From: Clytia hemisphaerica
Taxonomy: Eukaryota; Cnidaria; Hydrozoa; Leptothecata; Clytiidae
Reading direction: 5' to 3'
Assembly (NCBI GenBank): GCA_902728285.1
Contig: CACVBU010000809.1
Location: forward strand, 68,049-132,048
Length of the DNA: 64,000 nt
Each line of letters starts with the position of its first letter. Position 1 is the stretch's first letter. Below the pieces are notes generated by a model, which worked only from the letters and a program-made list of their open reading frames with translations, was not told the origin of the DNA and ran no database searches. A program made the position numbers and the translations under genes. This document shows, piece by piece, positions 28,088 through 53,985 of this stretch.

Positions 28088-28093
28088 TTTATT
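28088..28093 (-). terminator. candidate poly(A) signal of the MLCK-like gene
   Basis: AATAAA on the minus strand, about 260 bp past the stop codon. It is the nearest canonical hexamer I found. Confidence 0.4.
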
Positions 28094-28351: not shown

Positions 28352-29755
28352 TTATTTCTTATCATTCGTAGCAACGCTTTGTCCCGAAGTCCCTTCATCC
28401 GTTTTTTTCTTCGGTTTAGGAGACGGGGATTTTTTGGATAGACCTGTATATCCGTTTATCTGAATCATCTTTCCCGGTTTCAGCACGATCTTACGCGGGG
28501 TTTTCTTGTCCGTTTTAGCTTCCACTTCGCCGTTAATAGCTACAGTTACTTGTTCCTCGTTATTATTACTCTCTTGATCGCTCTTTCGTTCCTCCTGCAT
28601 TTTCTTACGTGCGTCATCTCGTAATTTTTTACGCTCCTCTTCGCTTAATTTCTTCATCTTTTTCTCTTCTTCTTTTTGACGTTTTTTCTCGGCTTTTTCT
28701 TCTTCTTCTTTTCGTTTTTTCTCTGCTTTCTCCTGCTCTTTCTTTTTCTTTTCCTCTTCCTCTCTCTTCTTCTTCTCGAGCTTATCTACATCCTTCTTCT
28801 TAGTGCTATCTTTTCGTTTGAGCTTGTTACGGATACTGTCCATGCGTTTTAACTTTTTCTCGCCTCCATCGGCACTGTCCTTTGAAGCAGCTTGACTTTG
28901 CTTCTTTTCTTCGTTTTCCTTAGCTTTCGCTTCCTCCACTACTTTTCTCTCCTCTTCTTCTTTCTGTTTCTTTTGCGCTTCCTCGGCTTCCTTCCGTTTT
29001 TTCTCGGCCACTTCGGCTTCCTCTTTCTTCTTTTTCTCGGCCACTTCATGTTCTTTTCGTTTTTTCTCTTCTTCCTCTCGTTGTTTTCTTTCGGCTTCCT
29101 CTTTCCATTTTTTCTCGGCAGCCTCGGTTTCTTTTCTCTTCTTTTCAGCCGCTTCCTCGTCTTTTCGTTTCTTTTCGGCGGCCTCTTGTTCTTTTCGTTT
29201 CTTCTCGGCTTCCTCTTGTCGTTTTTTCTCAGCGGCCTCGGCTTCCTTTTGTTTCTTCTCGGTGGCCTCGGCTTCCTTTCGTTTTTTCTCGGCAGCCTCG
29301 GCTTCGTTTTGTTTCTTCTCGGCGGCCTCGACTTCCTTTCGCTTTTTCTCGGCAGCTTCCTCTTCTAGTCGTTTTTTCTCGGCAGCGGCTTTTCGTTCCT
29401 CTTCCTCCTTACGTTTCTTTTCAGCGGCTTCAACCTCTTTTCTCTTTTTTTCTTCTTCTTCCTCCTTTCGTTTTTTCTCGGCGGCCTCCTGCTCTTTCCG
29501 TTTCTTCTCGGCCTCAACTTGTCGTTTTTTCTCGGCAGCTTCTTCCTCTTTCCGTTTTTTCTCGGCAGCTTTTCGCTCTTCTTCCTCTTTCTTTTTCTTC
29601 TCAGCCTCTTCAGCTTCTCGTTCTTTGGCTTCTTGAATCCGAACGGCTGATAAAAAGTTTCCACGGCCTGCACCATGTGCTCCCGTTCCTTTGTTCCCGA
29701 ACAATGAGAGACCACCAGCCAAACGGCTGACAGCTTTGATTGTGTTCATCGTGCG
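28352..29755 (-). CDS. MLCK-like gene, exon 9 (calmodulin-binding helix, charged helix, C-terminus)
   Basis: A 1404-nt terminal exon after a TTATTTATTTTAG acceptor. It begins RTMNTIKAVSRLAGG (second half of the calmodulin-binding segment), then a Gly-rich hinge, then about 250 residues of imperfect AAEKKRKEEE-type repeats. A Ser-containing break carries basic RxxS-like sites (KRMDS, KRKDS). A second charged stretch follows, then a less biased C-terminus (VTVAINGEV, KIVLKPGKMIQINGY) that looks like a small folded or binding module. The opposite strand shows long Ser/Phe-rich ORFs that are only shadows of this repeat. Confidence 0.88.
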   Translation of the reverse strand, partial: RTMNTIKAVSRLAGGLSLFGNKGTGAHGAGRGNFLSAVRIQEAKEREAEEAEKKKKEEEERKAAEKKRKEEEAAEKKRQVEAEKKRKEQEAAEKKRKEEEEEKKRKEVEAAEKKRKEEEERKAAAEKKRLEEEAAEKKRKEVEAAEKKQNEAEAAEKKRKEAEATEKKQKEAEAAEKKRQEEAEKKRKEQEAAEKKRKDEEAAEKKRKETEAAEKKWKEEAERKQREEEEKKRKEHEVAEKKKKEEAEVAEKKRKEAEEAQKKQKEEEERKVVEEAKAKENEEKKQSQAASKDSADGGEKKLKRMDSIRNKLKRKDSTKKKDVDKLEKKKREEEEKKKKEQEKAEKKRKEEEEKAEKKRQKEEEKKMKKLSEEERKKLRDDARKKMQEERKSDQESNNNEEQVTVAINGEVEAKTDKKTPRKIVLKPGKMIQINGYTGLSKKSPSPKPKKKTDEGTSGQSVATNDKK

Positions 29756-32700
29756 CTAAAATAAATAAGAAAACGTAAGTGAAAGCTCTTTTAGAAATTT
29801 TCGAGAATAAGTGAGGCAAGAGTAAGTATACTGCTTAAGTTTTATCTTTTTTGTTATTTTTTACATCTACCAGTTAAAACTACTTACATTTTTCGTTATT
29901 AGATACTCAAAATTATTTGAAATTTCTTAATTTTAATTTTTTAATGCCAGAAATATTTCAGAAATCATAAAAATAAGTTAATATTTTTCCAAAAAATGAA
30001 ATTCTAACATTGCATAAAATCTATTCTAAAGGGCCTCAAAGTCCTAGAGATGCTAACCATAATATTGATAAACAAAACGCTGAAAACAATTATCTACGTA
30101 ACCTACAGTTTAATCTCGGTATTTTGGGAATTCTAGTATGCTTGAGTTATAGAAAAATTTCAATAATAGAATTAGCGAAAGGCCAATGTAAAAATTTCCT
30201 CCTGTTTATTAAGGAAGAGAAAGTTTCGTTTATCTACTACTACATAGATTCCTCCTATAAGAGGGTAATTGTATATATTGTTTGATCAGTTGATTTCAGT
30301 AAGTTAACGTCCCTCGGTTTCAATTCTTTTGACCTTGATTGTTCACTGCAAGTTTACTACACAGGGAGTCGGTTAATCACTTTGATAGAAACAAAGGTTA
30401 CCTGCCAACGTCGCCTTGCGATGAATTTCTTCAAATTTGAAGTGTCAATTTTCCTCTCACTTCCTTCGTTCTGCGAGAGAAAAAATTCAAGAACATTTCA
30501 TTCAAGGTGAATAGTTACCAGTTTTTTTTATTTACTTAGACTCGGCTGATTTATTTTGTCGTAATTTTCAGGCTTAAATACTCTTAGAATATTCTCAATA
30601 TATTACTTTAAAAAAGTCAGCCTTTTCCAAGCCGTTTATGAAATGTGATACTGTCATAGTTCTCAATTTGTACTCAAAGTCCTATAAACAAACATCTAAA
30701 ACATTTGGTTGGCTGATCTGATTCAGCAATTTCAGAGGTTTGTATGACAAGATAATGACGGACAGACGGCCAGCTTTTGTTTCCAAGAACTACGAAAGAC
30801 TTACCCTCAGCCATGAATGTTCAAGACATTCTGCCACGGTTAAACGTTGCCTAAAAATTGAGAAACATGCTTATATTATAATCGGAATCGAACGCTTACA
30901 GGTAAAGGTAGTTTAGTTAAGCAACCTTTTCTAACTCGAAAACCTGTTTTTATCCAATCAAATAGTGTTTTTCTGGTTTTTAGAAGGCAAAAAGTGAACA
31001 ATTTCTTTCATCTCGCAAACATAGGTGACATTTTTTTCCCAAAATGTTGGCCCCTTACCTCAAACGGCTGGGCCCACGTTCGTTGGCACAACATTAATTA
31101 GAATAGTCAAAATGTTTATGAAAAGCTCACCGTGCAAATGAAAATCTGTCACGTTAGAAAAATAAGTCACAAAGTTTGAAAATATATTCTGGTACTGCTT
31201 TGGAAAAAAATTCGTCGCAGTTTGTTATTAGTTTGTACTAAATTTGTTGAAAAGATGACGTGTTAAGAAAATAAATCGTCCGTTACCGTCCACTGTGATA
31301 GACTAAATGACGCGATTAAGTGGTAGTGATCATTTTTTATGTTTTTCTTTCAAAATGGCGACCTTGTCAAGTGCTTTTAATCTACCGTTTCAAGGCTAGC
31401 CTAGCATAGTTAGGTTATCAAAAAACTTACGTTGGATCAAGGATCAACAGATCTTGAATGAACAATTTGACTTCATCAGAAAGGTTCTCAAAGATCTCAT
31501 CTTCATCTTCAAAGTCGTATTCACCCGAGGATACATTCTCCATTGTTTCATTATCATCATCTCCCATGAAGGGTGAAAGACCACTCAATAAAACATATGT
31601 AATCACTCCCAATGACCACATATCTGCTGCAACTGTCACCGGATCGTACTTCAACACTTCAGGTGCTGCAAAGAGAAAAAGAAGAAAGAAAATATTGTTA
31701 GTAGTGGCTTGGTTGGTCGACCAACATTGGGGCAAACTGAGAGACAGTTTTCTAAAGTTGGTATTTTGGTGCCCTATCTTTAGATTATTTACGCCGGCGA
31801 AGCGATCACTTAAAAATATTTGGATATCAATTTATCTCTTTTGACTGTAGACCTAAAAGCGAAGGGGCGTCGAAATTAGCAATCAGATGCACCTTTTGGC
31901 GCCCCTGTCGTTCTTTAACAATACGATGGTCACCAAATACAGAACATGTTTTTTTGTGATAATGACACGTGAAAGCGAAACTAGAATTTGCTCGAGTAGA
32001 TGGATATATACATGTACACAAATGAGTAACTTGATACTCAACGAAAACAAAAATTGAATTTCTTGGACGCTGACACGATAACAAGAGAAAATTTTGCTCT
32101 TGTGTGTGCGTATGCAGTGTAGAAGGTAGTCTGGAATTCACTCAAAAGTAGGAACAGTAGACGTAACATTTTATTGCAAATTAAGATGGATTCTGCTCAT
32201 GCTGACGAACGTAACTTAGCTCACTGTGCAGATGGAAGGAGCACGATGAGAACCGACAACCGTGAAATGACGAAAATCAAGGAAGACCATGCAAAAGAAA
32301 TCGAAAAAATCCAGTTCGAAAATAAGATAAAATTTCTTGAATCGGAAAATAACAATCGAATGAAGATCATGCAGCTTGAAAAGGACAATCAGTCTTTGAC
32401 TTATCAACTTCAAATGTTGAAGCTTCAAACCTCTCATGAAGTAGATTCAAAAAAAATGGTTGCTGATCATGAGTTGGAGAAAAAACTGGTGGAAAAGGAT
32501 AAGGAGATTGCAGCTAAGGAGATGAAAATCAAGGATATGGAGAAGGCAGCTCTGGTTAAAGATCGCGAACACCAAAAGAAGTTGCTGGAAATCAGAAATG
32601 AGATGATGATTGTTAAGGAAAAGGAGCATGAATCGAAGATTAAAGACTTGGAGCATTCCAATGAGGAAAAACTAGCACAAATGGAGAAAGAGAAGAGCCT

Positions 32701-35700
32701 TGAGATTCAAGCGTTTCGCACTGAGAATCAAATGACAAAAGCCTTAGGAGGAGCATCTTCAAAAGAGAACGATGTACGGAATGCAGTTCCTATCAAAGAA
32801 GAACAACTGTTATGGGGCATTGATAGGTTTATCAAGGGTGTTAAATCGAATTTAAACCTCTTTTCTTCCTACACAGAATGGTATGAGCGTATGTCGTCTG
32901 ACTTGCTTACCCATAAAATACCCGAGTATGTTTCTATGGAGAGATATTGCTTCATCAGAAAAGAATACTCTGAAAAGCATGATTTACTGTATTTTTACAG
33001 TATAAGGAATACGTGCGACTTGCCTAAAGAATTTAATAACATATCCCTGACAACAGAAATTGAAGAAGAGGGTACGAAAATCTTTTTGTTACATCCAAAC
33101 GAATTATCAAATAATACTTACAGAAAAAAGTGGGGTCAAACACCATCTTTTGAACACATAGAAGATTTTTATTTTGGAGAGAAAAACTCGCTTATTTTCC
33201 TCGTTGAGTTTCCAAAGAACTGAAACTCTAATTGATAAATGATTTGCTATATATGAACGAACTATGAATGCACGAGCTGTGGAGGTCTGAGTTATGGAGT
33301 TTCTGTCCCTTGACTTTCCCATATTTCAAACGATGGATTAGTAAATTCCAGTTATCGCTGATTGACATCATCAAATCAGTGTCAAATTTTCTGATTAGGT
33401 TTTGCAGAATACAGTCTATTTGGAAGAGCTCTTTTTCTCTGTAAAGTTGGGCCTGTTTGAAGAGTCGAGGGGATTCTTTAGATTGTGAAATAAATGATTG
33501 ATAATAATAGATTATGAAATAAATGATATTTTAAAGGTTTTGTGTTTAGATAAGAGTTATATTGTTTGCTTACTGCTTATTTAATTCACAAGCTTTTTGG
33601 ACCTACCCCGGTGGAGGTCCTATAAATTAACCTGTGTTTGTTCGTTCGTTCGTCCGTTCGTTCGTTCGTCTGTTACCAACTTTTATCAGGATTGAATCAT
33701 AGGAATCTTTTGATTTTTGGTATAAAGGTGCAAAATGGTAGTGGGCAAAATGTGACGAAGCCCGATTTTCGAAAAAAAAGTTTTTTGGGCAAATTTGGGC
33801 CAAAAAACTGCTAAAAAATGGGTTTTTTAGACTTTGTGAAAAATTGGATCATTAATTTCTTCTGATTTTTTGCATGAAAGTAGGGTACCATCATAGATAA
33901 AAGATGGCTCAAGCAGATTTTCGCAAAAAAAATTTTTGGGTCAAAGAAAGCATGTTTATCTATAAGAATCACTATTAATAAGCATACATCAATGTTCTTA
34001 GTCAAATTGCTCAATTTTTTTATGAGATAGATGTTTTATTTTGCTCATGAGGGCTTACTTTTGAAGAATATGTGTGTTTAGACAGGAAATTTTGGTTGCT
34101 TGGCATGTTTTTATAAAAAAACTGGCCAAATTCGATATTTTTTTACAAGCACATTATCAATTACTTAGTTATTAGCTTTTCTCGAGATTGGCTCTTTCAT
34201 TCTTTTATGATTTTTTGCACAAAGATGCATAACTATAAACCCTCGAATGTAACGGAGCCCGATTTCGAAAAAAAATTTTTGGGCAAATTTGAGCCAAAAA
34301 ACGGCTAAAAAAAGAGTTTTTTTGACTTTGTGAAAAATTGGATCAGACGATATCGAAGTTTTTTTGCATAAAAGTAGGGTACCATCATAGATAAAAGATG
34401 GCTCAAGCAGATTTTTGCAAAAAAGATTTGGCTCAAAAAACGCATGTTTATGTATAAGAATCACTATTGATAAGCATACATCAATGTTCTTAGTCAAATT
34501 ACTTGATTTTTTTATGAGATATATGTTTTTTTTGCTCACGAAGTCTTGAATATGAAAGAATATTTCAAGAGCATGAAATTTTGGTTTCTAAACGTTTTTT
34601 TTATAAGAAACAAACGACTAATTTTAATAGATCGTCACTATTTGTGTTCTGAATGATTGGTTAATGGTCACGTCACGTAGATATCAATTATAAATGTGTT
34701 AAATGCATAACCAGGTAGGTCCATAAAAGTATCACTTGTTCACATTGGATTGACACGGATGTGGAGCAAGATTGGTCAAAAAGAGGAAGAGAAAAACATT
34801 TTCTTGCTTAAATCAGCATAACATAACAATAGGCAGACACTGTCCCAATATAAAATATGTGTCTGATATGAAACGGGAACAGTTATACAAAAACAAAACC
34901 TTTAAAATTACATTTAAAATTAATAATAACTTAAAATTGTTAGAAAATGATTTTTTTCAAAGTTCTATGAATTGTAAAAGTAAACGATTCGTTAAATTAA
35001 AGTGTTCCATAAAATTTTCATCGTTTTTTTGTAGCTGTAATATTTTCAATAATTTCGACATATGACTTACATGACTATTTCGATGTTTTGTGTTCGGAGA
35101 ATTACTATACTCTCCTTGCTCTCATTAAATTCATTTAAAGTCCGTTGAAAGTTCATTTAAAAAGACCGCAGAGAAAAATTAGGGTATTTTAAGTACAGAG
35201 AATTCGTCCTCGCAGTAAGCAAAACTTTCTCTCTGTTAAATTCCACTTAAACAGTCGAATAACCATAAAATGATTAAAGTTCAATTAGTAATTTTGAAAT
35301 CGCTAATATGAGGTTTCTGAAGCAAAAAATCTTCCCAGAAACCAAAAGTCCATAAAAAGTTCGAAAATTCCGGTTAAATACATGCTAGCTAAAACCACGA
35401 AGAAACCACCCAAAATTTAAGAAATCTTTCTTAATCCAGCCATATCGATACTTTAATGCTGTTAATTCAGTTTTGCCCCTTATTTGAATCGCAAAATGAT
35501 ATTTTTAGGATTGCCAAAAACATAAAAGCAATATATTTCCCCCAAAACAATGCTTAAATATTTTGATTAAATTACCTTTGATAATAGTGTCGATTTTTCA
35601 TTCAAATGTTGATTACTGTTTTGATGAATTTGGTCATTTTAGGTAGGTCAATATTTTCAGTTTTTTAAACATGACTTTTGATTGACTTAACCGATGTTAA

Positions 35701-38700
35701 AGTTTTGTATACCAAAAGCAATCCTTTATTGAATAAAAATCAGCGAAAAAAACCGTAAGCTCGTATTATCTTGTCAAAACTGTGTTTTTGGTGCACCCGG
35801 TAGGAAATACCCGTTTTTCAAAAAAAAAAATTTGCAGTTCACTGTCTCTCATATCGATATTTACGGGAATCCTAGAAATATACCTCTGAGGGTCGCAACT
35901 AAGCTTGGTCGATACCTTTAATGGCCTCATCCACCCTCCCCCGCCCGCCCCCGATTAAACTCAAAGTAACCTACCGATGAATTCAGGAGTGCCGCCCATT
36001 ACTCGTTCGTCTCCATCTTTGTCCAATACTCTGGTCATTCCAAAATCGATCAATTTGATCTCCTCATAGCCTGGTTTTCCTCCACCCAAACATAAAATAT
36101 TCTCCGGCTAAAAACGAAAATGGAAAGAGAATTTATGTAACCTGACGACATTACCTTTTAAAAGTCGTCCCAACCATTTATATAGTGTGCTCGAAAAAGA
36201 CGAAATTGATTAAAAAAATCCTCAAAACTTATTATTTTTTGCTTTTTTAAATTTATTCACACTGTAAACTTTATCTCAAATCTTTAGCTCAAATTCGTGT
36301 CCAACTTAAATATAAATTGTTTAAAACCTTTCTGAATTCTTTACCTCAAGACCATCGATTTTTTTTAGAATTTGTCGGCAATTTGGAATTTGGATTTTTT
36401 TCGTTTCCTTTTTTAGGATTGCGTCAACTTTTCCATACTACATACCATTATATCGCCGTGAATAACGTTACAGCTAACTTTTAACCGAAGGTCAAAGGTA
36501 TGGAGTTTATTGGTATGTTTTGTTTTTCAAATTATTATCCACATACCTGGCGGAACAATCGTAAAAGGCTGAAGACTCAAATGGAATAAAATTCACTAGG
36601 AATTGGGGAAAAAAATTCTAATTTTCTCCGCTTCCGCTGGGCCTGATTCATACATACTAGTTATCATTTGAGTTTGAAAGAAATACGGGATATATTTTAC
36701 GAGTTCCGTAGTATTTTCGCGAAAAATATCTGAAATATCCGGAACGAGTAAAATATTTGATTATTTCACGAGAATGTATGCAATTAGTATCAGCACATTT
36801 CGCAATATTTTAGCTGAGTGTGGAAAAATTTTAACCAAAGCACATTTTTGGCGTTTACGGTAAAAAAACTCGGTATTTTTTTCAGTCAAAATTCGTATGG
36901 GAATATAAACAGACTAACAATCCTTAAAAGTAAATTATCATTTCACAACAGCTTTATGCAACCTTCCCGCAGTGACATGCACTGAGAATTGAATTGAATT
37001 GATAGTAAATAGTCTATACTATGTATGCCACATTCAGTAGGTAGGTACATAGTATTCTGACAGCGAAAAGGCTAGCACGCGAAGTAAAAATGCGATTCAC
37101 ATATAACAGAATTTCCACCAATCTCGAAAAGCTACCATCATCAATAACTCCAATATTTTTTACTTTCAAAAAGTCAACTTTCAAATCTGTTTTTTTTTTT
37201 GGTTAAGAAACTACTCTTGTCTCCCGAATAGACGTCCCCCCCGCTAATTGTTAAATGAAAAAAAATCCATCCCCCCGCTCTTATTAAGACCCCCCCCCCA
37301 CTAATTAAATTCGAATAATTTAATATTTTATTACAGTGTAGATAGACCTTAATCTTGTTAAAATTTTCCTTTTTGTTGGTATTGGTTCTTATTTTACGTG
37401 TTCATTTGTTAAAGTTTCTTTATGGTTGTTGAAATTGATATCAGTTTAAAAAAATTCTGCGTTCAAATTACCCCCCCTCTTATTCCATCCCCCCTGCTTA
37501 TTAGAATTAGAAAATTCCCCCCCCCTTATTAGAATTTATTTTCAGACCCCCCCCCCTGTCTATTCGGGAGACAAGAGTACATTATTGCCAAAATAAAATA
37601 CCATATTACTTGTAAAAAAATGCTGCCCTTCATTTCAACCTCGAAAAAAGCCCTCCATTTTTACCGAAAACTAGCGACCTTCATTTAAACATCGAATAAG
37701 GGTCCCTTCTTGAAGAAAAAAGTATAAGAAGCCGTCAGACTTATATTGCAGTGACTTGGTATGTCATTTGATCACTCAACCACACCATTAGAACAATTTT
37801 CAGAAATCCATAATAAATATTCCAATACCTTGAGATCCAGATGTACCATGTTCTTTCTATGCATATGTTGTACACCATAAATGACTTGTTTCATATATCG
37901 GATGACTTGTCGCTCCGTCAAGTTATCATCCTCGACCACCTTCTCGAACAGTTCACCACCTGAACAAAAAGTATAATTAAACGGTTTGGCTTGTTGCCTT
38001 GTGTCGCATTCATAGGGTGCAGAGGGGTCTGAACTTTATAGGGGGGATATGTGTATACACCCCCTATTTTAAAAATTTTTCGATCCTGCGCTATTTAGTC
38101 CACTAGTCATTCCAAACCAAAAACATTGAAATTTCTATTAGAAATTATATAAAAAAATAGTTAAACAATGGCGCCGCAGGGGAAAATTTAGCTATCCTAC
38201 ACTTGTTTTTTTTAGTTGTCCCACACCAAATATCTAAATCAATATAAAATATGTTCGCCCCAGACCTCCCTACTTCATACCTGTGACCAGTTCCATGATG
38301 ACGATCATGTCTTGTGTTGTTTCGTATGCGTCATAAAGTTGAATTAATCGCTTGTGATGCAACAAGTTCATCATTTCAATCTCGCGTAAAACTTCTTTCT
38401 TTGACGATGCCGATTTTCGGACGAATTTTGCGGCGAATATTCCGCCATCTGGCTTTCGTTTCACTTTGTATACCACTCCGAATTTTCCTCTGGAAACAAA
38501 ATAAGAGGTTATATTTTAGTATTTTATGCACAGGCCTGCAAAAACATCTACCAACTCTTGCACTTAAAGTTTTATAGGGGATTGAGTTCCAGGGTTTGTC
38601 ATGGTTCAACTACGTTAACATTTCAAAGTCATTACTACGCTCATAGATCATGCAGACATTTGCAGGCTCTATCTAGTCTACTATAATTCAATCCTCTTAG

Positions 38701-44700: not shown

Positions 44701-47700
44701 ATAGATAGTTCTGTTTTAAGAGCGATTGAATCCTACTATTAACAATTCTTCACAGCACGACGGTACAGCTTATCTCTATTTCGACGTAAGAGCAATTCTA
44801 TTCCTCCTCGAAAAATCTTTATTTGAGATAAAAAACATTCTCTATAAAGTCCATATTCTTTAATGATGTCAGCTCGTAAGGACCATATGTATCATGATAT
44901 GCATGTAAGCAACGAACTCTAAATTAACACCTGGAATGAAAATCTCTATAGAAATTTCTAAAAGAATGAAAGACAGCTTTTGTCTTAAAAAATAGCCAGA
45001 GCTGAGGGATGTGTTGGTAATTGTTACTTTTACAAAATTATTTGTATACTTTCATTGTGCTATAGCCTTAATCTTGAAAATTCGTGTTTTTTGCCAAGCG
45101 TCTTTCCCCCGGGCGTGGGGTACTTAGGCAAATGGAGGGTACGGCATGTGCTGCCGTGGTACCTTTTTTGGATTTCCAAAGTCCCGCTAAGGGTCGTAAA
45201 ATTGACAAAATTTTCCTTTGTTTTCTCCTTTTTAGTCCCGATAAGGGTCCGAGGGTCGAAAGTCGGGCGGCACCCCCCCCCCCCGTCAGCTCGTAACCCT
45301 AGTACCCCCACCCCCTTTCCCCAAATTCGAGGACGTCACATGGTCTGTTGAGAACTAAAGAGTCAAAATAGATCTACCTGATTTTCCTTACACTTGTTTA
45401 AATAGAATAGCCAGGAGGTATCTACACATACACGTATACTCTTTCGGTCAAACGTTTCTTTATGACGAGAGGTCAATGATGTATTCTGATTATGAAAACT
45501 GTCAAATTATTATCTGTCCTAGTACTTAAACAATAGCGAGTTTATGTATTCGAGATAAATCGAAGGAGACGGTATAAAGCAAATTGATATGCCACCAAAA
45601 TCACCGTCCATATTACTTGACGACGGTAAAAACACCAAAATACCGTCGTCTGTTTATTTAGCTGAGAATAGAAGATATAGAGCCGAACATCGACTGTCGA
45701 CTTTTTTTTGCCTCACTTTCACTTTCCGTCACCCTCGATATTCTCCGACACATAAACTCGGTATATCACTCGGTAATCACGAGGCCAGGGGAATGTGAAA
45801 ACTGTGGTGGAGATATACAGTTGACGCTCTCTAATTCGACGTTCTACTATTCGATGGTTCCCTTATTCCATAAAATTTAAAGTCCCCGTCAACAAGAAAC
45901 TCTTATAAACGACTTTTCTGCTATTCGATACTCATTCAATGAAAGCCCAATTCACCTTGAAGATCGAATTAGAGAGCGTCAACTGTATGCACGAAAAGCT
46001 TGTCGAAATAATTAATCAATGGTCCATGCTTACGAGAATCTCTCATCAATACTGACTAAAAGAATATATGGCAAGAATCTCAAAAGCCAAAAACATGTCT
46101 TATAAGACTCCAACATATCAAAAAGCTCAACTTAACAAAATGATGGTGATGCTATATCGAAAAAAAACATCGAAAAAACTTTGAAGGTATTCACACTACT
46201 ATGCTGCTCTTTTATGAAGGACGAAAGACAATCCCTTACGAAAATACTTTTTAAGGGGACTTCTCGTCGAGTTGTTGGTCCATTGGACTTTCTTGTATAT
46301 TGTTGTTGTGAGAAAGAAGGAACTTAATCAATTATTAAGTCAAATCCTCCCATCTAGTTATAGATTCTTTTTACTTGGATTCCCTCCAAATTAATAACAA
46401 AGTATAAGTGTCTACATTCTTAGAAACTAGACTAATCCAATTTTTCTTCCGTTCTCTGAACCTTCTGTTCAAGGGATTCATAAGCCGTGTCAATTTTCCC
46501 ATCTTTCCAAAATTGCATTTTTTTCTAACTCCCCCCTCCCCCACTGACCCTCTTCTAACTGGTCAGACTACCCCAAACATTTTTTTGTCTCATGCAATTA
46601 TTAAAAAAGATTTGAAATGAATTCTCCCAAACATATGGATTTTTACTTCTCTTTAATAAATGCTTCTTTTCTCTAAAATGAGCGTCAGGTTTTATCTCCT
46701 TTTAAAAAAAAAAAGTTCCAGCAAGGAACCATGAAGGAGGAACTGAGGCAGGGTTGGCATTGCAAGACCATTGCAAAAACTAGATTTTGTGCTCATAGTG
46801 CTTAACGAAGTACAGCTATTCTATTGGTTCGATCCAGAACAACATCATTTCAACAAACAGAATCGTTTCAATATGAGGTTAAAGCGGTTCATATTTCGCG
46901 TCAACATCAAAACAAAAATCCAAAAAGACGCAGCAAACCAGCTTCAGACTTCCCTTCTTATCAGGCTATCAAAATCTCCTAAGAACTTCATCTACATCTC
47001 TTTCTTCAGCTCTGTTCATGGGAATCGTGAATTGTGTCAATTTATCCATCCCCTGAGCCCTTTCAATCACAGGAGTGAAGAACTTCATTTTCAACAAGTA
47101 AAATCGCTTCTATGTTTACGGTTCCTATCGTTTCAACATCAGAACAAAAATCCAAAAAGAAAGTGACAACGTCATTCCAAGCTTTTGACTTTTTCTTTCC
47201 TTCTCATCAAAGCTAGCAAAATCTCCTAAGAGCATCAATCTCCATCTCTTACTTGAGTGAGGATCCAAGTCTAACACTCCTCGATTGAAGTATCTCTTTA
47301 TCACTTCTTTTATAACTCATTTTTTCATTGCTTGGTGACCACAAGACGAAGTGTTGATCACTTGACACACTCATACCCCTCTTATCACCTTATTTCCTCA
47401 TTTATCACCATGTTGGAATATTATGTTTTGATATTTTACTTGAAAAGAGTCTCAATCAACGAGAGAAGTCCTTTTGACTTCATAACGAATACCTCAAAAT
47501 AAAAAGCTTTTTCATAAAAGTTTTACATCTCTAAGGGTCGGTTATCGGAGGTCTGTTCCGCATACACCCGACATTTTCCAACCCCCTAGGTAAAAAGGTT
47601 GAACATATTTTTCAATCTAAATGTTGATCCGTCCTTTTAAAATAAAAATATTACTCCTTTAAATAGTCTGAAATCCCTGGTAATTACTGCCATGGGTATT

Positions 47701-50700
47701 ACTACCAATCATTATGTAGCCATTCGATTCGTCCCCTCTTTCGTTTTTTATAGACGTAAAGTAACTTTGCTAAAGAAGAAACGAGACATTTTGTCCATAC
47801 ACGTCTTTTTTTTTTAAGAAACTAGTTTTACCAAGCAGCCTCGATGTTTCTTAAGAAATTTGGCCTTTTGAGCCTTAAATGTTTCTTACATGTTTCTATA
47901 CTTTTTGACATAATTAGCCTTGATTGGAAGGTTCTTATAAAAAACCGAATCAAAAAATGTTATTTTCTCATTCTCAGCCTCAGCATGTTTCTTAGATGTT
48001 TCTTAGTTTTTAGGCATTCTGAGCCTCATGTTTCTTAAAAGTGTGTTTCTTAAAAAAAAAAAGACGTGTATACTAACTGAAGATAAGTGCAACCCAGAAA
48101 AAAGGTCAATTCAAAATTCCTAAACTTTCAAACTGAAAATAGAAGGCGTCGTAATTGATTTCAAATTGAAGGTTGGCAATATACACGCTTTTTTTTTTAT
48201 AAGAATAGTGTACTTTGGTTGAGGGTGAGCATTATTCTTATTTTTCTATTGTTCTAAACAATAGGCCTATTGTTTTAAACCCGAAATCTCACCCTGATAT
48301 TCTTATAGAAGTTACTCTTATAAAAGAAAAAGCGTGTAAAGCTTGATTGATTTTCCTTGTTACAATCTACATTGTAATTCTGCAATCAATAAAAAAGAAA
48401 GTTCTTTTCAGTAAGGACAAAAATGTACGTGGTTGGCAGCTCAATTAAAGTAGATTTCTTTCACGTGTGAACTTAAGTTAACACAATTATAATCGAACCG
48501 CTTAGATTTCGATTTCTTTAAAGTGGGATTTTCCCCTATCAAAACAGTCGACATTTCATAACACCACGTCTCGATCTGTGCAATGGTCGACCTCCCACAA
48601 CAGAAATACATGTTTTTTTTTATAAGCAAGTTTATGCCCCTTGGTCAGACTCGTGTATGCTTAAGTTCTCAAAGCATCCAGGCATAGCTTATGCTTATTA
48701 TATGCTTAAGAATCATGCTTATGATTCACCCCCGAGCCAAGTTTTTAATGAAATTTCAGAAATTTTGTAAAAACTTGTTCAGATTTTGGGAGCAGTGGAA
48801 TGTAGCTAGCTGTGGGATGTCTTATTTTTTACTTAACCTCTACCAAACCTTTTTAAACAGATAAAAATGACCACTTGAAAAATATTTTAGGCTGACATAT
48901 ATGCTCATGTTATGCTTAGGAATTCTGCAAATCTGAGCCTTAATATGCTTTAAAAAAAACATGTAATCGGGACAAGCTGGAGTTTTTACAAGCTCTTATT
49001 TGATTTGGTTGATCGTTAACCAGTAATAAAACAATTTTGTTACTTTTTCTAAAGAACGCGTCATCGCTCTATCACTTCAAATGACCAATTAGTTAAGTAT
49101 CTTATAAAAACTCCAGCTCATCCCAAAAAATCATGATGAATGAAATTTTATTTTTCCAGGAAAACTTCTGTTAACCTCATCAGGAGAAGGCTTGATTCGC
49201 TGCTAAGCTTTTTAAAACCTTTGAAATATCCCTGTCATCGTTTAAAGTAAGGTATTTTAACCTCATTCAATTCATTTTCATTGGTATTCGGACATAGAGC
49301 TCGTACGTCGCGAGAATTTACATAGCCTATATTTTGGGGCGCCGATGTAACAAAAAAAAAAAGTTTACCGGCAGGAAATTCTAGCGTCTGAGAAACAAAT
49401 CGAGTTAAGCAGGTTGAAAGGAATTCCCAGCAGACCTTTATGCTAGCTATTCTAAGTACCGAGATCAACTCCAAGCTTCAAAATGAAGAGCGTCACAATT
49501 GAAATAACTTCTAGTCTACTTTGCTCCGACAATCTCACTTCCTGATTTCAAATTATTCCATATTCCAATAGTTTCAAAACAAATCGCAAATTTTATTCCA
49601 AAAGGTTGCAAACAACCTCTAGCATTCTACGGGGCCATGCATTTTTCATTTGTCAACTTCCCACAGTATTTATTAATTTTGTAACTTGATCGCTCTATTG
49701 ACATTTTAGATTTTGTCAAAACTTAAACTCGGTTCCTTTTTGGACACTTAGTTATTATTTGTATGTCAAGATGATGAATGCAAGCCTCCTGTATTTCCCC
49801 CTTAACATTATGTATGACTAAAGGAGGTCAAATTCAGGTTATTTTTTAAAGCTATTGATGAAATTCAGGCTTAGTTATATCCCTAAGGTCCATGGTAATG
49901 GGCACGGATAGAGCGCATGGAGATTAAAAACAAATGCGCTTGACTGTCAACTATATGATTTCAAATTTGGTCTGAGAGTGTGTAGACCGAACCTCTAGAA
50001 CCCCGGACGAAGCTTTTTAAGTCTAATTTTCTCCAAATTTCCCTCTGGAAATGAATATACTTTTAAGAGACTTCTCTAAAAGCTGAAAGGCTGTTGGAAA
50101 GCAGTTATCTAAACCAGTTTATATTCTAACTTGGTCAAAACTATTTTTTCATAAATAACATTTGGCTTTTCGTCCAACTTAGCCCGCACACTCTTCTTAA
50201 AGATGAGCCTTCAAGAGATAGGGAACAGGTCTGAAGCATGGGTTTTAAAACAAACGATATGATTTCGAGAGATTTATAGTCAGCGTGATTCTCTGCATCG
50301 TTTTTATATAAGATAGAAGTAAGTTATCTATAATTTTGAAATGCTGTCACATTATCTATGATTGTTTTAAGTGGATTATTGTATAAGGGATCAGTGACAA
50401 ACAGCCTTCTAATATTTGTCTACATAGCGGCTGTATTACTGAGGTTAAGCATACCAGGATAATCACGACGACGGACGAAAAATGTAATAGGCTAGTGAAA
50501 ATACGAAATTTGATTGGTTGAAACTCGCTAGCCTGTTAAAGTGTTCGTTCGTCGTCGTGATTTTACCGATTTGCTTAACTTCACTATTATGTCCTCATAT
50601 AAAAATACTACAGATATATCAAGCGTCTGCCTTTTTCGAGACACAAGAGCGCGGGAATATTCTTATAAAGAGTTAATTTAAAATAATAAATTGCCGCGGG

Positions 50701-52802
50701 AGAGTGGTTTGGAAACATGATAAGCCCAATAGGTCAGCTGACACAAAATAAAAATTTACTAGTCTTACAAGTTTACTAGTCGTAGTTTTATCCTGTGCGC
50801 AGCTTTATGCGAACTTTCGTTCTTGGACATGTACACGTTTTTTAAACATACATCTTGAATTTTTGAAGCCTTTGGATGTTCTCAATTTTTTGAGTTTTAA
50901 GTTTGAAAGTATTTTTAAAAAAGTTCTTATTTTCACCATATTTTTCTGAAATTTTTTTATTTTAGAGTCTGTAAAGAAATATGGTATTTTAAAGTCTGTA
51001 TTCTTAAGTTTGACTATTGTTGTCTTTCATTCATTTAATTTAATCCATCACTCACTTTCCAACAGCCATAACGGTTTTAACCTCTCTTTAGCCTGAATAA
51101 CAAACCTCTTTAAAACCACAGGCAATAGAGGAGCATGAAACCGTTAATGGCTGTCAGCAGCCTAACTTCTCTAATTTTTTACACGTGCGCCAATCAATCT
51201 AAATCCTCATTCTCAATTTTTCTTGCTTTAAATTCCTCAATAGACCTCTTCGGATGTAAAGTCAATGCTCTCTTGTTATAATCATAAGCCGTAAAATTAC
51301 AACCAGGCAACCTTATTTAAGTTTTTAAGAATTACGCGAAATCGATTTTCAAGTTTTAAAAGTATTTTTGGAAATTTGCCAACTTGATAGTGAACCAACC
51401 ACTAAGAGATCAAATAGATTAGTCAGGTGATATCAACAAAACCTTCCTGCTGGTTCTGATTAAAAGAGTTCAAAATATTTCTAATCGGAAATAAAAAATT
51501 CCGCTGTTAACAACTTGAGGGACCCCGAAGTCAACCAGCGGACCCCTATCGGAGTCTAAAACTAAAATCAATGTTTTGTTTAAAAAAGGAATTAAAGTAT
51601 TGAGCGTACCTTCATTCATTTTTGGTTTATTTTCCATCTCACAGAAAATTCAAATCTATCAGCCTATATATTACTATTAAATTTACAATATAGCTGTGTA
51701 TCTATTTCTTGTTACATTGTTTCTCGAATTTCGTTGAATCTAAAACGCCTCTGCCTGCCTCTGCCTCTTTTGTATGTGGAGTTTCAATTGATCGTAAGCC
51801 TGTAAGATTGTTTCATTTTTTGGCTAGATTATCTTATTAAAACCATTCAAAAAATTTCAGATAAAGAAATCCAAAAAGTTAAAGCACTTTAAAAGGAGAA
51901 AATACTATCGGTTAACGAAACGATATCACTTTGTGAAAAAAGTTATCCATACAAGGTTTGACATGATGTTTTCAAATCAAAATACTGGTGTGGGGGTCCA
52001 CCGGGTCTGTGACACAGGGGTGTCAGTTACAAATCACCATTGTTGTAGGGTTTTGCCGGTTTTCCTTTTTCTTCCCTGATGTGAAACAGATGGCTGTCTA
52101 GTGAGAAATTTTTCAACTAGCTTTATAATGATGTAATATGAATGTTGTTTGTGTAGAAAGTGAGAAAAATGAAGAAGAAGGCCAAGTTTTGGAAGATCTT
52201 CTATATATTAATACGCTGCTAATTCGTTTGTGTTTACAACATTTTTGTAAAAATGGCGTTGAACCTTCATCTTTCCGTATCTTAAGCAGATTCTCTACCA
52301 TTAGACTAACTTTGGAATGCCCAGATACGATGTTCTATACAGGAACTTCGGAGCTGGGCGAGTTAAAATCAACCTTCTTCCCATACATTTTCACTTTTTA
52401 GCTTTATTTTTTCATTTTGAAGAATTCTTATTCAGATGCTTATTAAAACCTTTTTGTTACATTGGCAGCTCTTTGACACTTTTTACGACAGCTATATTTT
52501 CTGTTAGAGTTTTTTATATGAGTAGGAATTCACTGGATTAGAACACGCAGCGTGCGACGCTGCGCATACGGCTAGTTTACTTAAAATCTTTGAAATAGAC
52601 ATAAATTTTCATGTGAATACACCTTTCAGGGTCGTTTTCATTCGATTTTCTCAAATTTGGCTAAATTTTCTCATAGAGTCCAATTTTAAGACCCTAATTT
52701 TTTGTCGGCACATATGGTAGTTTTCAGGTCAAGTGCCCCTTCCTAGGGAATATTGGTAATAAAGGCATTGAAAGTCACATTCTTACCGTCCTTGTTTGCC
52801 AT
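28352..52802 (-). CDS. MLCK-like Ser/Thr kinase with calmodulin-binding segment and long charged-helix tail (9 exons)
   Basis: Exons, 5' to 3' on the minus strand: 52802-52787, 40902-40788, 38489-38281, 37959-37829, 36107-35975, 31665-31431, 30850-30805, 30470-30402, 29755-28352. All introns are GT-AG and every phase joins, giving 2358 nt (785 aa). Residues about 36-294 form a kinase domain: GKGKFG loop (43-48), Lys65, Glu80, HLDLKPEN (153-160), DFG (178-180), TPEFIAPE (197-204), GLSPFMGD. HLDLK and the SPFMGD/NET region are typical of myosin light chain kinases, whereas DAPK has HFDLK. Residues 308-335 (FIARRRWQRTMNTIKAVSRL and following) match the autoinhibitory/calmodulin-binding helix of MLCK in position and spacing. 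Residues about 357-605 and 640-710 are almost only K, E, R and A, suggesting single alpha-helix. No Ig or FN3 domains are seen. Likely role (inference): Ca2+/calmodulin-controlled phosphorylation of myosin regulatory light chain on the cytoskeleton. Exon 1 is the least certain part. Confidence 0.85.
30402..30470 (-). CDS. MLCK-like gene, exon 8 (autoinhibitory linker)
   Basis: A 69-nt phase-0 exon between a TTTTTTCTCTCGCAG acceptor and a GTAACC donor. It encodes NEGSERKIDTSNLKKFIARRRWQ. The LKKFIARRRWQ part corresponds to the MKKYMARRKWQ-type segment that precedes the calmodulin-binding helix in vertebrate MLCK (recalled family feature). Confidence 0.85.
30805..30850 (-). CDS. MLCK-like gene, exon 7 (subdomain XI)
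   Basis: A 46-nt exon between a TTTTTAG acceptor and a GTAAGT donor. It encodes QRLTVAECLEHSWLR, matching the RL...CLxHPWL end of MLCK kinase domains, with S in place of P. It is too short to show up as an ORF. Confidence 0.85.
31431..31665 (-). CDS. MLCK-like gene, exon 6 (APE to C-lobe)
   Basis: The acceptor is TCTTTGCAG and the donor is GTAAGT. It encodes APEVLKYDP, DMWSLGVITYVLLSG, LSPFMGDDDNETMENV, then an acidic stretch and VKLFIQDLL. Confidence 0.92.
32186..33223 (+). CDS. uncharacterised coiled-coil protein, single exon, nested in a kinase intron
   Basis: 345 aa from ATG 32186 (MDSAHADER...); the four upstream in-frame codons start at TTG and are not a plausible start. Residues about 25-200 are a highly charged coiled coil with repeated short blocks (HEKE, KEHES, LEKD, MEKEK). 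Residues about 205-345 look globular, with aromatic residues (LLWGIDRFIKGVKSN, YTEWYERM, HIEDFYFGEKNSLIFLVEF). I do not recognise the family. The gene is intronless and lies entirely inside the 31666-35974 intron of the minus-strand kinase gene, on the opposite strand. Two AATAAA hexamers 265-300 bp past the stop support a real transcription unit. It could also be a domesticated or recent transposon-derived ORF, but no transposase or reverse transcriptase motif is visible. Confidence 0.7.
   Translation: MDSAHADERNLAHCADGRSTMRTDNREMTKIKEDHAKEIEKIQFENKIKFLESENNNRMKIMQLEKDNQSLTYQLQMLKLQTSHEVDSKKMVADHELEKKLVEKDKEIAAKEMKIKDMEKAALVKDREHQKKLLEIRNEMMIVKEKEHESKIKDLEHSNEEKLAQMEKEKSLEIQAFRTENQMTKALGGASSKENDVRNAVPIKEEQLLWGIDRFIKGVKSNLNLFSSYTEWYERMSSDLLTHKIPEYVSMERYCFIRKEYSEKHDLLYFYSIRNTCDLPKEFNNISLTTEIEEEGTKIFLLHPNELSNNTYRKKWGQTPSFEHIEDFYFGEKNSLIFLVEFPKN
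33489..33523 (+). terminator. paired AATAAA poly(A) signals after the nested coiled-coil gene
   Basis: AATAAA occurs at 33489-33494 and again at 33518-33523, in an AT-rich stretch 265-300 bp after the stop codon. Confidence 0.45.
33599..34722 (+). mobile_element. 'GGACCTACC' TIR element, best full-length copy
   Basis: TTTTTGGACCTACCCCGGTGGAGGTCC start, GTTCG/GTCCG microsatellite, two tandem GCCCGATTTTCGAAAAAA ... ATCAAGCAGATTTT-like modules, end ACCAGGTAGGTCC. 1124 bp, no transposase ORF. Located in an intron of the kinase gene, just 3' of the nested gene. Confidence 0.8.
34906..35974. other. kinase-gene intron, no other feature
   Basis: AT-rich; contains a lone GGTAGGTC end-like sequence at about 35642. 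No gene found. Confidence 0.4.
35975..36107 (-). CDS. MLCK-like gene, exon 5 (PEN, DFG, GTPEF)
   Basis: The acceptor is CGTTTTTAG and the donor is GTAGGT. It encodes PENILCLGGG, KLIDFGMTR and MGGTPEFI. DFGMTR replaces the DFGLAR usual in MLCKs. Confidence 0.92.
37212..37579. mobile_element. C-rich TIR MITE, copy 2
   Basis: TA|CTCTTGTCTCCCGAATAG ... TATTCGGGAGACAAGAG|TA; same order of C-runs and AT core (TTCGAATAATT.AATATTTTATT) as 7881-8260. Lies in a kinase-gene intron. Confidence 0.85.
37829..37959 (-). CDS. MLCK-like gene, exon 4 (alpha-D to catalytic loop)
   Basis: The acceptor is TTTTTGTTCAG and the donor is GTATTG. It encodes GGELFEKVV, LTERQVIRYMKQ and NMVHLDLK with catalytic Asp155, ending in phase 0 immediately before PEN. 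Confidence 0.92.
38281..38489 (-). CDS. MLCK-like gene, exon 3 (N-lobe)
   Basis: The acceptor is TTTGTTTCCAG and the donor is GTATGA. It encodes GKFGVVYK, FAAKFVRK (ATP-anchoring Lys65), LREIEMMN (alpha-C Glu80) and MELVTG (hinge). Confidence 0.9.
38490..40346. other. kinase-gene intron with an unclassified repeat-like block
   Basis: At about 39718-40065, a TATACACCACTGTCTCACAGCC end and a right end GGGTCTGTAACACAAGGGTATATA are roughly inverted, with CCAGTGGGG words repeated inside; probably a decayed MITE. At 39121-39147, GAAATAGTG and CACTATTTC form a small hairpin. Confidence 0.4.
40347..40615 (-). mobile_element. tRNA-derived SINE, uninterrupted copy
   Basis: On the minus strand: tRNA-like head with GTGGGTTCAATCCCTGGCC (B-box) and a GTAGTGCAAAGGTGGG A-box-like stretch, then GGGTCATACC, GGTACTTGATGCCTCTCTGC, a CACCCTCCATTACCTTTGGG body and GACTGCGGTTGC end. 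Confidence 0.7.
40788..40902 (-). CDS. MLCK-like gene, exon 2 (N-terminal lead to P-loop)
   Basis: The acceptor is TTTCTAG and the donor is GTATGT. It encodes an acidic lead (VAELEEGDCLELEARPP), then NLEELG, the start of kinase subdomain I; the glycine loop is split across this junction. Confidence 0.8.
41528..41815. mobile_element. CACTGACCTTTATATA MITE, copy 1
   Basis: CACTGACCTTTATATATCCC ... GGGTATATAAAGGTCAGTG; long inverted ends, interior includes GGCTGATATAGCTTGGTACA. In kinase intron 1. Confidence 0.75.
42190..42432 (+). mobile_element. GTTCTTA-type MITE, degenerate copy (C3)
   Basis: AGAGCATCCAAAATTTTAGA, AGATGTTCTTAGC, GTTCTTATAAAG and right end AAAACGTGTA; lies 108 bp from a second copy in the same orientation. 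Confidence 0.6.
42540..42760 (+). mobile_element. GTTCTTA-type MITE (C2)
   Basis: TA|CACGTTTTTTGTAAGAACAT ... GTTCTTATAAAAAAGACGTG|TA with repeated ATGTTCTTAAC words. Confidence 0.75.
43144..43347. mobile_element. ATAGACCTTTTCATAAAT MITE, uninterrupted copy
   Basis: ATAGACCTTTTCATAAAT...GTCACGAACA at the left pairs with TGTTCGTGACG..ATTTATGAAAAG at the right, with GCCTCGTTTTGAAA / GAATACGAGGC inside. Confidence 0.8.
45060..45345. other. GC-rich island in kinase intron 1, unclassified
   Basis: CCCCGGGCGTGGGGTACTTA, GGTACGGCATGTGCTGCCGT, then a run of ten or more C. Composition is unlike its surroundings; overlapping frames exist on both strands but show no motif. Possibly transposon-derived. 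Confidence 0.35.
45816..45987. mobile_element. pogo/Tigger-like MITE
   Basis: TA|CAGTTGACGCTCTCTAATTC ... GAATTAGAGAGCGTCAACTG|TA. The CAGT terminus and TA duplication are characteristic of pogo-type Tc1/mariner elements. Confidence 0.85.
46780..47275 (+). repeat. diverged tandem duplication, unit about 240 bp
   Basis: CAACAAACAGAATCG (46851) and CAACAAGTAAAATCG (47092) start parallel blocks; both continue to AACAAAAATCCAAAAAGA and CTATCAAAATCTCCTAAGA / CTAGCAAAATCTCCTAAGA. Confidence 0.6.
47798..48070 (+). mobile_element. TA-flanked MITE, TTTCTTA type (B)
   Basis: TA|CACGTCTTTTTTTTTTAAGA ... AAAAAAAAAAAGACGTG|TA; TGTTTCTTA occurs about six times inside. Confidence 0.8.
48182..48338 (+). 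mobile_element. TA-flanked MITE, ATTCTT type (A2)
   Basis: TA|CACGCTTTTTTTTTTATAAG ... CTTATAAAAGAAAAAGCGTG|TA, with ATTCTTAT near both sides. Confidence 0.8.
48607..48965 (+). mobile_element. TA-flanked MITE, ATGCTTA type (D1)
   Basis: TA|CATGTTTTTTTTTATAAGCA ... ATGCTTTAAAAAAAACATG|TA; ATGCTTA/TAAGCAT repeats about eight times. It is the inverted counterpart of 55296-55612. Confidence 0.8.
48966..49130. mobile_element. GCTGGAGTTTTTACAAG MITE, copy 1
   Basis: CAAGCTGGAGTTTTTACAAG ... CTTATAAAAACTCCAGCT, with TTGATTTGGTTGATCGTTA inside; abuts D1. Second copy at 63716-63872. Confidence 0.75.
49131..50438. other. kinase intron 1 sequence, nothing recognised
   Basis: AT-rich; no exon, repeat or RNA gene that I can support. 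Confidence 0.4.
50439..50587. mobile_element. CACGACGACG fold-back MITE, copy 2
   Basis: GAGGTTAAGCATACCAGGAT then AATCACGACGACG; right CGTCGTCGTGATTTTACCGA then TTGCTTAACTTCAC. Nearly identical to 8976-9121. Confidence 0.8.
50833..51010 (+). mobile_element. GTTCTTA-type MITE fragment, right end lost
   Basis: TA|CACGTTTTTTAAACATACAT, TTTGGATGTTC, AAAGTTCTTATTTTCACC; no right terminus. Confidence 0.5.
51061..51157. repeat. short fold-back repeat
   Basis: ACAGCCATAACGGTTTT pairs with AAACCGTTAATGGCTGT, with AACCTCTTTA / GAGG words between. Confidence 0.5.
52245..52325 (-). repeat. tRNA-like (glycine-type A-box) fragment
   Basis: Minus strand TTAGTCTAATGGTAGAGAAT then AAGGTTCAACGCC resembles A and B boxes, but the acceptor and T stems do not pair well. 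More likely a SINE head or tRNA pseudogene than a working tRNA. Confidence 0.3.
52787..52802 (-). CDS. MLCK-like gene, exon 1 (start codon exon)
   Basis: Sixteen coding bases, MANKD plus one base, ending at a GTAAGA donor. The ATG has A at -3 and G at +4. The phase-1 end fits exon 2, which begins with two bases (G|GT). The intron that follows is 11.9 kb, so another first exon or an extra small exon cannot be excluded. Confidence 0.6.
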
Positions 52803-53985
52803 TGTGAACCAGATTTTAACACTTCTCACAAATTCCAACAAACTTCACTATATTATTTTTTTGTTTCTCTGCTTCTTCTACTTAAGAAATCAACGAGAAA
52901 ACCATGAATAAAATTTACTCCAAAAAGCAGACCTTACAGTGGACAATTTCTTCAACAAATTATTCTGAAAAGAAAACCAACAAAAAGCCGCTGGATCCGC
53001 TTCATTAAAGTCTGTATCGATATAATCTGCAGCGAAGACAGAAGATGCTGTAACTATTGACAGAATTTGAATTGAATAGTGGTTTTGGGCTTGTTGAAAA
53101 GATAATCGGGAGTGGCCAATAATAGAAAATAGAAAAAAAAGAAAAGGTTTTTAATAGATTTTTCACCCCTTTGAGAGACTTTCGAGGGTGTCAAAAAGGG
53201 ACCCTTATGGCTCGCACATACCCGGCACCAATTTTGGCTAAGTCACCCTCAGATGACGTTTCTTCATCGTCTTGATTTCTTTTTCTTCAATTTTTATTGT
53301 TTATTTTTTTCTATTTAGCGATACTCCACTCTTGATTAACTTTTCAACGAACACAAAACCGCTAATTAATTCAAAGCCTATCAAAAGTCATAGCCTCCGC
53401 CGCAGATTATATCGAGACACACATCAAATAAAAAGCACCAGTTGCAATAATATCCCACCAAATAATAAACAACAATCTGTCTCAAATTTTAAGATTTCCA
53501 TACAAAATATGACGAGAAATTTTTCAACGATCGTCAAAATATTTTTTTCTCATCTCATCTCTAGTCGTCCAACAAAAAGGAAGGATTAGCTGGTTTGGAG
53601 CGCGTTTGACAGTGTATCTCTTTTTGTTTCATTGAATTTTTGTTTATTGTTGATGCGTCCAATTATCTGAACAATTTTAAACTACAGCAAAAGGCTGGCA
53701 AGCGAGTAAAAAAATCGATTTAAACAACACACTGTTTGAAGGTTTTATTGTCTTTTTTTTCTAATCTGTTATTTTTTATTTTTTGTTTATAAGCATCTTT
53801 TGCTTTAAGAAAACTTATTAATACTATCAGTATTGATGATTGCTAATTCCGGTATTCCTGGGATGTATGACCGTTGTGGTTATGTTAGACAAGAATTATC
53901 CCACCTTTTGGATATTATACGTATAATAACCAGATTTTAACAAGTCATGTTTGGTTAAATATTTTTCACATTGATGAGTTCTGTT
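52803..53985. other. region upstream of the MLCK-like start exon
   Basis: The presumed promoter/5'UTR side of the kinase gene. AT-rich; no TATA or operator that I can defend. The plus-strand frame 53272-53589 lacks motifs. Confidence 0.35.

Follow-up and report, generated by a model that had tools for sequence, protein, structure and literature searches.

The kinase gene and its surroundings

The window, a stretch of 64,000 nucleotides of Clytia hemisphaerica DNA, contains on its minus strand a protein kinase gene that runs from position 52802 to position 28352. As the initial annotation had proposed, nine phase-compatible exons (16, 115, 209, 131, 133, 235, 46, 69, and 1404 nt, in this order) can be joined, all with GT-AG borders, and the spliced translation is 785 residues long and free of internal stops. 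This structure of a kinase with an attached tail is shown computationally, as a prediction from the DNA only. The kinase domain begins in exon 2 (40788–40902), which also encodes the N-terminal flank, and continues through exon 3 (38281–38489; N-lobe, with the remainder of the P-loop and the catalytic Lys in AAKF, residues 63–66), exon 4 (37829–37959; HLDLK at its end), exon 5 (35975–36107; PENIL, DFG, and GTPEF), and exon 6 (31431–31665; C-lobe), to end in the short exon 7 (30805–30850). Exon 8 (30402–30470) encodes the autoinhibitory part and the first half of a predicted calmodulin-binding segment, whose second half opens exon 9 (29720–29755). The rest of exon 9 consists of a Gly-rich linker of 20 residues, AGGLSLFGNKGTGAHGAGRG (29660–29719), a charged stretch predicted to be helical (28889–29659), a short break, ASKDSADG (28865–28888), a second charged stretch (28529–28864), and a Lys/Pro-rich C-terminus of 58 aa with the stop codon (28352–28528). 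A poly(A)-like signal, AATAAA, occurs at 28088–28093 of the same strand, about 260 nt past the stop codon.

Exon 1 (52787–52802), which supplies the start codon and the residues MANKD, is the least certain exon of the model. It was the best of nine first exons screened for Kozak context and donor, being the sole candidate to combine a strong donor with a purine at −3 and a G at +4; the screen covered the region 40903–53600 and admitted candidates no longer than 150 nt that have a common donor. A possible alternative first coding exon on the minus strand, MENKPKMNE (51637–51610), is in phase with exon 1 and uses the rarer donor GTACGC, a type that the screen did not admit.

Several other features occur in the window. 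Intron 5 of the kinase gene hosts, on the opposite strand, an intronless open reading frame (ORF) of 366 aa (32123–33223), whose product has a long coiled-coil half followed by a globular-looking half; it matched no Pfam family, and the one NCBIfam match was far below the cut-off. A single-exon gene on the plus strand (17941–18843) encodes a thioredoxin and a PITH domain (Pfam) and is presumably TXNL1-like, and a Ras/Rab-type GTPase exon on the minus strand (13979–14602; Pfam Ras, 1.1e-27) presumably resembles Rab20. An ORF on the minus strand (5724–6389), with no Pfam match, holds CECGKRYVGETGLKISTRVSQH, a stretch that we take to be GIY-YIG-like, and is perhaps a retroelement remnant. Finally, a 156-bp unit is repeated 3.9 times, with 88% matches, at 3650–4263.

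Kinase class and the calmodulin-binding segment

Pfam identified one protein kinase domain, at residues 37–294 (E 7.7e-72), the other families listed being overlapping kinase models, and the catalytic motifs that had been described as intact are all present: the P-loop (43–50), HLDLKPEN (153–160), DFG (178–180), and APE (202–204). In its core, the kinase is 49.0% identical to human MYLK, for which the reference sequence is unverified against a database; the figures are 48.2% for MYLK4, 46.2 and 47.4% for two twitchins, and 45.1% for DAPK1. A tree of nine sequences places the window kinase with the MLCK/twitchin kinases against DAPK at an ultrafast bootstrap of 94. With the addition of the two closest paralogues of the same genome (C346 and C342; 11 sequences), this separation is found at 89, the window kinase is sister to C346 at 95, and C342 joins them at 75; both trees used CAMK1 as the outgroup and contain four reference sequences that do not come from a database. 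Support is weak at nodes within the MLCK branch (39, 67, and 75 in the larger tree, 43 and 54 in the smaller), those with better support being MYLK2 plus MYLK4, the twitchins, and the window gene plus C346.

By PDB score alone, DAPK1 chains come first, before MYLK4 and twitchin; the calmodulin segment, missing from most MLCK-family chains in the PDB, contributes to the DAPK1 score. The DAPK1/ZIPK kinases thus offer the highest-scoring PDB kinase and, like the window protein, carry a calmodulin segment after the kinase domain. They differ in having, beyond the catalytic Lys, a basic loop (RRTKSSRRG in DAPK1) that the window kinase lacks. DAPK membership was rejected on the basis of this missing loop, of the placement of DAPK outside in the tree, and of the half-motif comparison described below, and on these sequence comparisons the kinase is assigned to the MLCK/twitchin branch, not to DAPK or CaMK1.

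An autoinhibitory and calmodulin-binding segment of the MLCK type is predicted directly after the kinase domain, the calmodulin-binding part at residues 311–330, spread over exons 8 (LKKFIARRRWQ) and 9. The initial annotation had read it as an MLCK-like segment split between the 69-nt exon and the last exon, and a PDB search agrees: smooth-muscle MLCK (smMLCK) peptides deposited with calmodulin were matched at 18.6 bits (E 0.015, 18 residues), versus 12.4 bits for DAPK1, and only three polyubiquitin chains, with scores summed from 1.6-bit pieces, ranked above them. As in MYLK, a W and an L lie 14 positions apart in the segment. Its presence predicts release by Ca2+/calmodulin, and the kinase is probably switched in this way.

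The segment depends on the splice from 30402 to 29755, which yields FIARRRWQ followed by RTMNTIKAVSRL. When the 14 residues after every AG on both strands of the window were compared with the second half of the smMLCK motif, acceptor 29755 ranked first of 6875 (score 32, runner-up 23); against the DAPK1 half-motif it was only tenth. The same scan was applied to six paralogous kinase loci of this genome. Two of the six, C346 and C342, have both the 46- and the 69-nt exons and a clear acceptor, with the calmodulin motif split at the identical place; acceptor 964339 of C346 ranked 1/1663 for the smMLCK half-motif (32 vs 15) and acceptor 600709 of C342 ranked 1/1528 (20 vs 9). At C416, a possible acceptor, 294159, came top for both half-motifs with narrow margins (16 vs 15 and 19 vs 14), and no convincing split-motif acceptor emerged from the scan of C531, C735, and C346:938000–947900.

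As the fusion is known here from DNA alone, exons 1–8 and the last exon might be imagined as separate genes or isoforms, with their joining an artefact of reading. This is extremely improbable. Acceptor 29755 stands first among the AG sites, the exon lengths and the motif split recur identically in two paralogues, exon 8 by itself would be left without the second half of the calmodulin motif, and a poly(A)-like signal is present past the last exon. The artefact was rejected on the acceptor rank and the exon structure of the paralogues, which together are strong evidence that the fusion of kinase and tail is a real gene; the join postulated by the initial annotation is well supported.

MYLK contains Ig and Fn3 domains and a C-terminal myosin-binding Ig domain, telokin (PMC5505704). 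None of these modules was found in the window gene, in which a charged helix is predicted to follow the kinase instead. Upstream of exon 2 (40903–64000), a Pfam search of the three minus-strand frames, read with stops as X, gave no Ig or fn3 match at E up to 0.5, and Pfam detected no Ig/FN3 or telokin-like Ig domain in the last exon. The only family found in the upstream frames was the PT repeat, a match explained in all three frames by a perfect (TCGG)29 tetranucleotide array at 62854–62969. The possibility that Ig exons were missed through an insensitive method was rejected, as the same method, applied to the C342 locus, did detect I-set and fn3 stretches upstream of the kinase there. Applied to the kinase exons of the window gene itself, it found them at 2.8e-31 in one frame; because most kinase exons sit in that frame, the other two were weak controls, with no match in one and E 0.081 in the other. 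The absence of detectable Ig/FN3 exons holds within the window, inside which the best start exon also lies.

The charged tail

The tail had been described as two long K/E/R/A-rich charged stretches totalling roughly 350 residues. When the last exon was modelled with AlphaFold2 from its single sequence, helices were predicted at residues 33–165, 172–289, and 298–409 (363 residues), in agreement with that description if the weak break at 166–171 is ignored; the pTM of the model is 0.22, and a bias towards helix is expected of such models where a sequence is rich in K and E. The first charged stretch corresponds to last-exon residues 33–289 (257 aa) and the second to residues 298–409 (112 aa), with residues 290–297 modelled without helix between them (pLDDT below 50 at 290–294). 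At 0.15 nm per residue the two would measure ~39 and ~17 nm if continuous, and the whole tail (residues 33–409, 377 residues) would reach up to ~56 nm. This region has an E+K+R fraction of 0.66, a Pro+Gly fraction of 0.008 (0.8%), and a longest run free of Pro and Gly of 264 residues. The Gly-rich linker that precedes it has low pLDDT and no helix. The C-terminus, which the initial annotation had considered folded-looking and a possible anchor, did not live up to that description, with a block-mean pLDDT of 45–55 over last-exon residues 401–467, neither helix nor strand predicted, and no fold.

An open frame alone is weak coding evidence here, because the sense strand over the helix region contains only 6.5% T; long antisense ORFs cross the region. 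The other frames of the last exon contain 12 and 27 stops (sense) and 9, 5, and 10 stops (antisense). The tail is repetitive, with a period of ~10 residues, and its repeat copies differ at codon positions 1, 2, and 3 by 258, 273, and 659 mismatches of 1380 (0.187, 0.198, and 0.478), counted over 69 pairs of 60-nt windows with a DNA identity of at least 70%; the pairs overlap between lags and do not count as independent. The explanation of the tail as non-coding purine-rich DNA is ruled out by this third-position bias, which, as a comparison between repeat copies, shows that selection has acted on the amino-acid sequence of the tail and has kept it.

With a charge-pair score whose weights are our own, modelled on PMC5812594 and distinct from the Waggawagga program, helices 1, 2, and 3 of the model scored 0.69, 0.74, and 0.51, compared with 0.77 for the single helix of myosin-10 and 0.14 for a coiled coil that the window also encodes. 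Charge pairing exceeded that of shuffles of the same composition by 10.3 SD for the tail, 5.95 for the myosin-10 helix, and 2.96 for the window coiled coil, a figure that grows with length. Hydrophobic residues make up 4–6% of helices 1 and 2, which have no hydrophobic seam triple, versus 29% and five triples in the window coiled coil. Helix 3, which is the second charged stretch, contains 11.6% hydrophobic residues and two seam triples, and this, together with its lower score, makes a short coiled coil possible there. The sequence pattern of a single α-helix (SAH, ER/K), a long E/K/R-rich stretch with opposite charges spaced i,i+3 and i,i+4 and without a hydrophobic seam, is found in helices 1 and 2 and, more weakly, in helix 3, and the tail would probably be a monomeric single helix in solution.

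Net charge is close to zero in the first two helices (+2 and +1, 251 residues together) and rises to +12 in the second charged stretch and +9 in the C-terminus. The last exon matched no Pfam or NCBIfam family and no PDB chain at E up to 1e-5. The window protein lacks DFRxxL, the actin motif of vertebrate MLCK, and no anchor motif could be made out in it. Two Ser residues in a basic setting (KRMDSIRNKLKRKDSTKKK) lie close to the beginning of the second charged stretch (28849–28793, minus strand) and are candidate phosphosites or a candidate docking patch.

Proposed role of the tail and related kinases

Smooth-muscle MLCK attaches to actin and to myosin through its ends, and its attachment to myosin is presumed to increase the local affinity (PMC5505704). 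No actin- or myosin-binding tether of this kind was recognised in the window protein. Which heads are switched on depends on where an MLCK sits relative to myosin, a demand that smooth-muscle MLCK answers with its actin- and myosin-binding ends. A substrate is encoded in the same genome, so that substrate and kinase coexist: the best of 27 light-chain matches in the genome is a regulatory light chain that contains RAQRATSNVFAMFDQSQIQ, and the smooth-type MLCK site, RAQRATSNVFAMFDQ, is part of its N-terminus. From QRATSNVF to SLGK this light chain is presumably identical to the human smooth-type sequence. Troponin gave no match in this genome, with a query that gave none in control genomes either; this result is compatible with a non-bilaterian animal but is no proof that troponin is absent.

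Our preferred reading, to which we assign a probability of roughly 55%, is a short, Ig-less, calmodulin-switched MLCK that a single-helix leash ties to an anchor, with heads on a neighbouring filament within its reach. In the resting state, the active site would be blocked by the autoinhibitory/calmodulin segment (residues ~300–330). On wrapping around this segment, Ca2+/calmodulin would free the kinase to phosphorylate the myosin regulatory light chain on its N-terminal Ser. The leash between kinase and anchor, monomeric and stiff but extensible, would consist of the Gly-rich linker and both helices (~39 and ~17 nm), and a kinase so held in an actomyosin or cytoskeletal lattice could reach heads on the neighbouring filament. 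The anchor would most likely be the basic second helix with the Lys/Pro-rich end, or the helix surface itself. Expression of the gene, its switching by Ca2+/calmodulin, the monomeric state of the helix, its role as a leash, and the anchor are all presumed in this proposal.

In a wider and more tentative form, for which the odds are rather against than for, Ca2+ control of contraction or cortical tension in this animal, with no troponin match in its genome, would run partly through a calmodulin-switched MLCK in which a helical leash of at most ~56 nm replaces the Ig-based tether to actin and myosin, with the length of the leash setting the heads that are reached and with the possibility of stretching under force. 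If the proposal is true, this would be a natural MLCK on a helical rod, with a reach tunable by tail length alone. The leash idea would then be directly testable by a change of length, comparable to the doubled-length form in which the INCENP helix has been tested.

INCENP offers the closest parallel. Its single helix of 213 residues, ~32 nm long, has been suggested to serve as a leash that gives Aurora B access to targets in motion, so that a kinase is held through a long single helix, as proposed for the window protein. The INCENP helix, however, is part of a scaffold subunit separate from the kinase Aurora B, whereas the window gene encodes both in one chain. Caldesmon, unlike the window protein, is not a kinase. 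H-caldesmon is described as having a long repetitive single helix of ~34 nm between myosin and actin (PMC13102872). It shares with the window protein a long repetitive single helix in an actomyosin regulator, and the proposed leash MLCK would be the INCENP/Aurora B arrangement realised in a single chain, with a spacer like that of caldesmon. M4K4, which we take to be MAP4K4, belongs to a kinase family other than MLCK. A 53-residue construct of its single-helix region was reported to be 79% helical by CD (PMC12203971). Both are kinase genes that encode a single helix, predicted in the case of the window gene, but the tested M4K4 helix is several times shorter. Predicted single helices are common, in ~1.5% of genes by one estimate (PMC5812594). 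A calmodulin-switched MLCK fused to a single helix was not found among the listed titles and abstract starts of open-licence papers. The window gene is predicted to be a new combination of known parts, an MLCK kinase and its calmodulin switch joined to a single-helix tail.

The spacer or leash idea fits the published single helices of INCENP and caldesmon, and because these appear to do similar jobs a helical leash is favoured here, with binding by the helix surface as the main rival. According to that rival, the tail would be chiefly a binding surface for microtubules or F-actin and reach would be secondary. The INCENP helix is reported to bind microtubules directly, and the positive charge of the second charged stretch and of the C-terminus would suit such a role; the first two model helices, however, are nearly neutral, and the last exon has neither a family match nor DFRxxL, so that we regard a tail serving mainly as a surface as unlikely. 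That the tail is instead a dimeric coiled coil pairing two kinases is very improbable. Single helices and coiled coils are easily confused, as the INCENP helix was reportedly long predicted to be a coiled coil, and the hydrophobic content and two seam triples of the second charged stretch speak for pairing, but helices 1 and 2 contain few hydrophobic residues and not one seam triple, far from the composition of the window coiled coil.

A different objection is that the tail is a neutral low-complexity expansion, generated by repeat slippage and tolerated at the end of a kinase without any specific role. Its tandem repeat structure, a low-complexity ORF of another sort downstream of the nearest paralogue, and the lack of a second tail copy in the genome can all be read in this way. 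The repeat copies, on the other hand, differ ~2.5 times more at third than at first and second codon positions, and the charge order lies 10.3 SD beyond what composition gives, both of which indicate that the amino-acid sequence has been kept; a neutral origin without function is accordingly judged improbable.

The helical leash, if it exists, seems to be confined to this gene within the genome. The closest relative, C346 (966–968 kb), is 56.3% identical and has the same 46- and 69-nt exons and a nearly identical calmodulin segment, its exons 3 and 4 being fused into one. No Ig domain was found by Pfam in the 9.9 kb scanned at this locus, nor in 956500–985700 by tblastn with a telokin Ig sequence that does not come from a database. 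It differs from the window gene in that its frame stops 51 residues after 964339, in the last exon modelled in this assembly, and no comparable helix was found beside it. The sole long K/E/R-rich ORF in the six kinase loci scanned lies near C346 (963369–961741) and is a putative part of that gene, but with 13% Pro+Gly and 25% Ser+Thr it gives no helix signal (z −1.5). C342, with a kinase 55.9% identical, the same 46- and 69-nt exons, and the same split motif, differs in its upstream I-set and fn3 stretches and in its Ser/Thr/Pro-rich end. A search of the same genome found no second copy of the charged helix, the only other match to the last exon being a weak low-complexity one (E 1.2e-5). Since the kinase and the calmodulin segment recur and the helix was not found again, the tail appears to be particular to the window gene, and the kinase with its calmodulin segment is old and shared. 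Outside this genome, viral contigs gave no relatives, and genome contigs gave one bacterial kinase at 28% identity.

Among cnidarian kinases, the actomyosin kinase of Aurelia has been described as a protein of 563 residues with two Ig domains and a kinase, and was reported to lack a working calmodulin site (Tanaka et al., PMC5958069). The same authors stated that Ca2+ activation of cnidarian kinases could not be deduced (PMC5958069). A paralogue that has a good calmodulin site and no Ig domains would be a candidate for the missing Ca2+ switch of cnidarian muscle kinases.

Two observations concern the paralogous loci. The residues that follow the linker read NFLSAVRIQEAKE in the window gene (29659–29621, minus strand) and TMLAALNAANKE in C346 near 964240, and vertebrate MLCK presumably has AFLEAVAEEKP before telokin; the three may represent a single short motif held in common. 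Just downstream of the Ig-containing MLCK of C342 comes another kinase with an Ig-like stretch (C342:594753–599466), so that two such kinases stand side by side at that locus.
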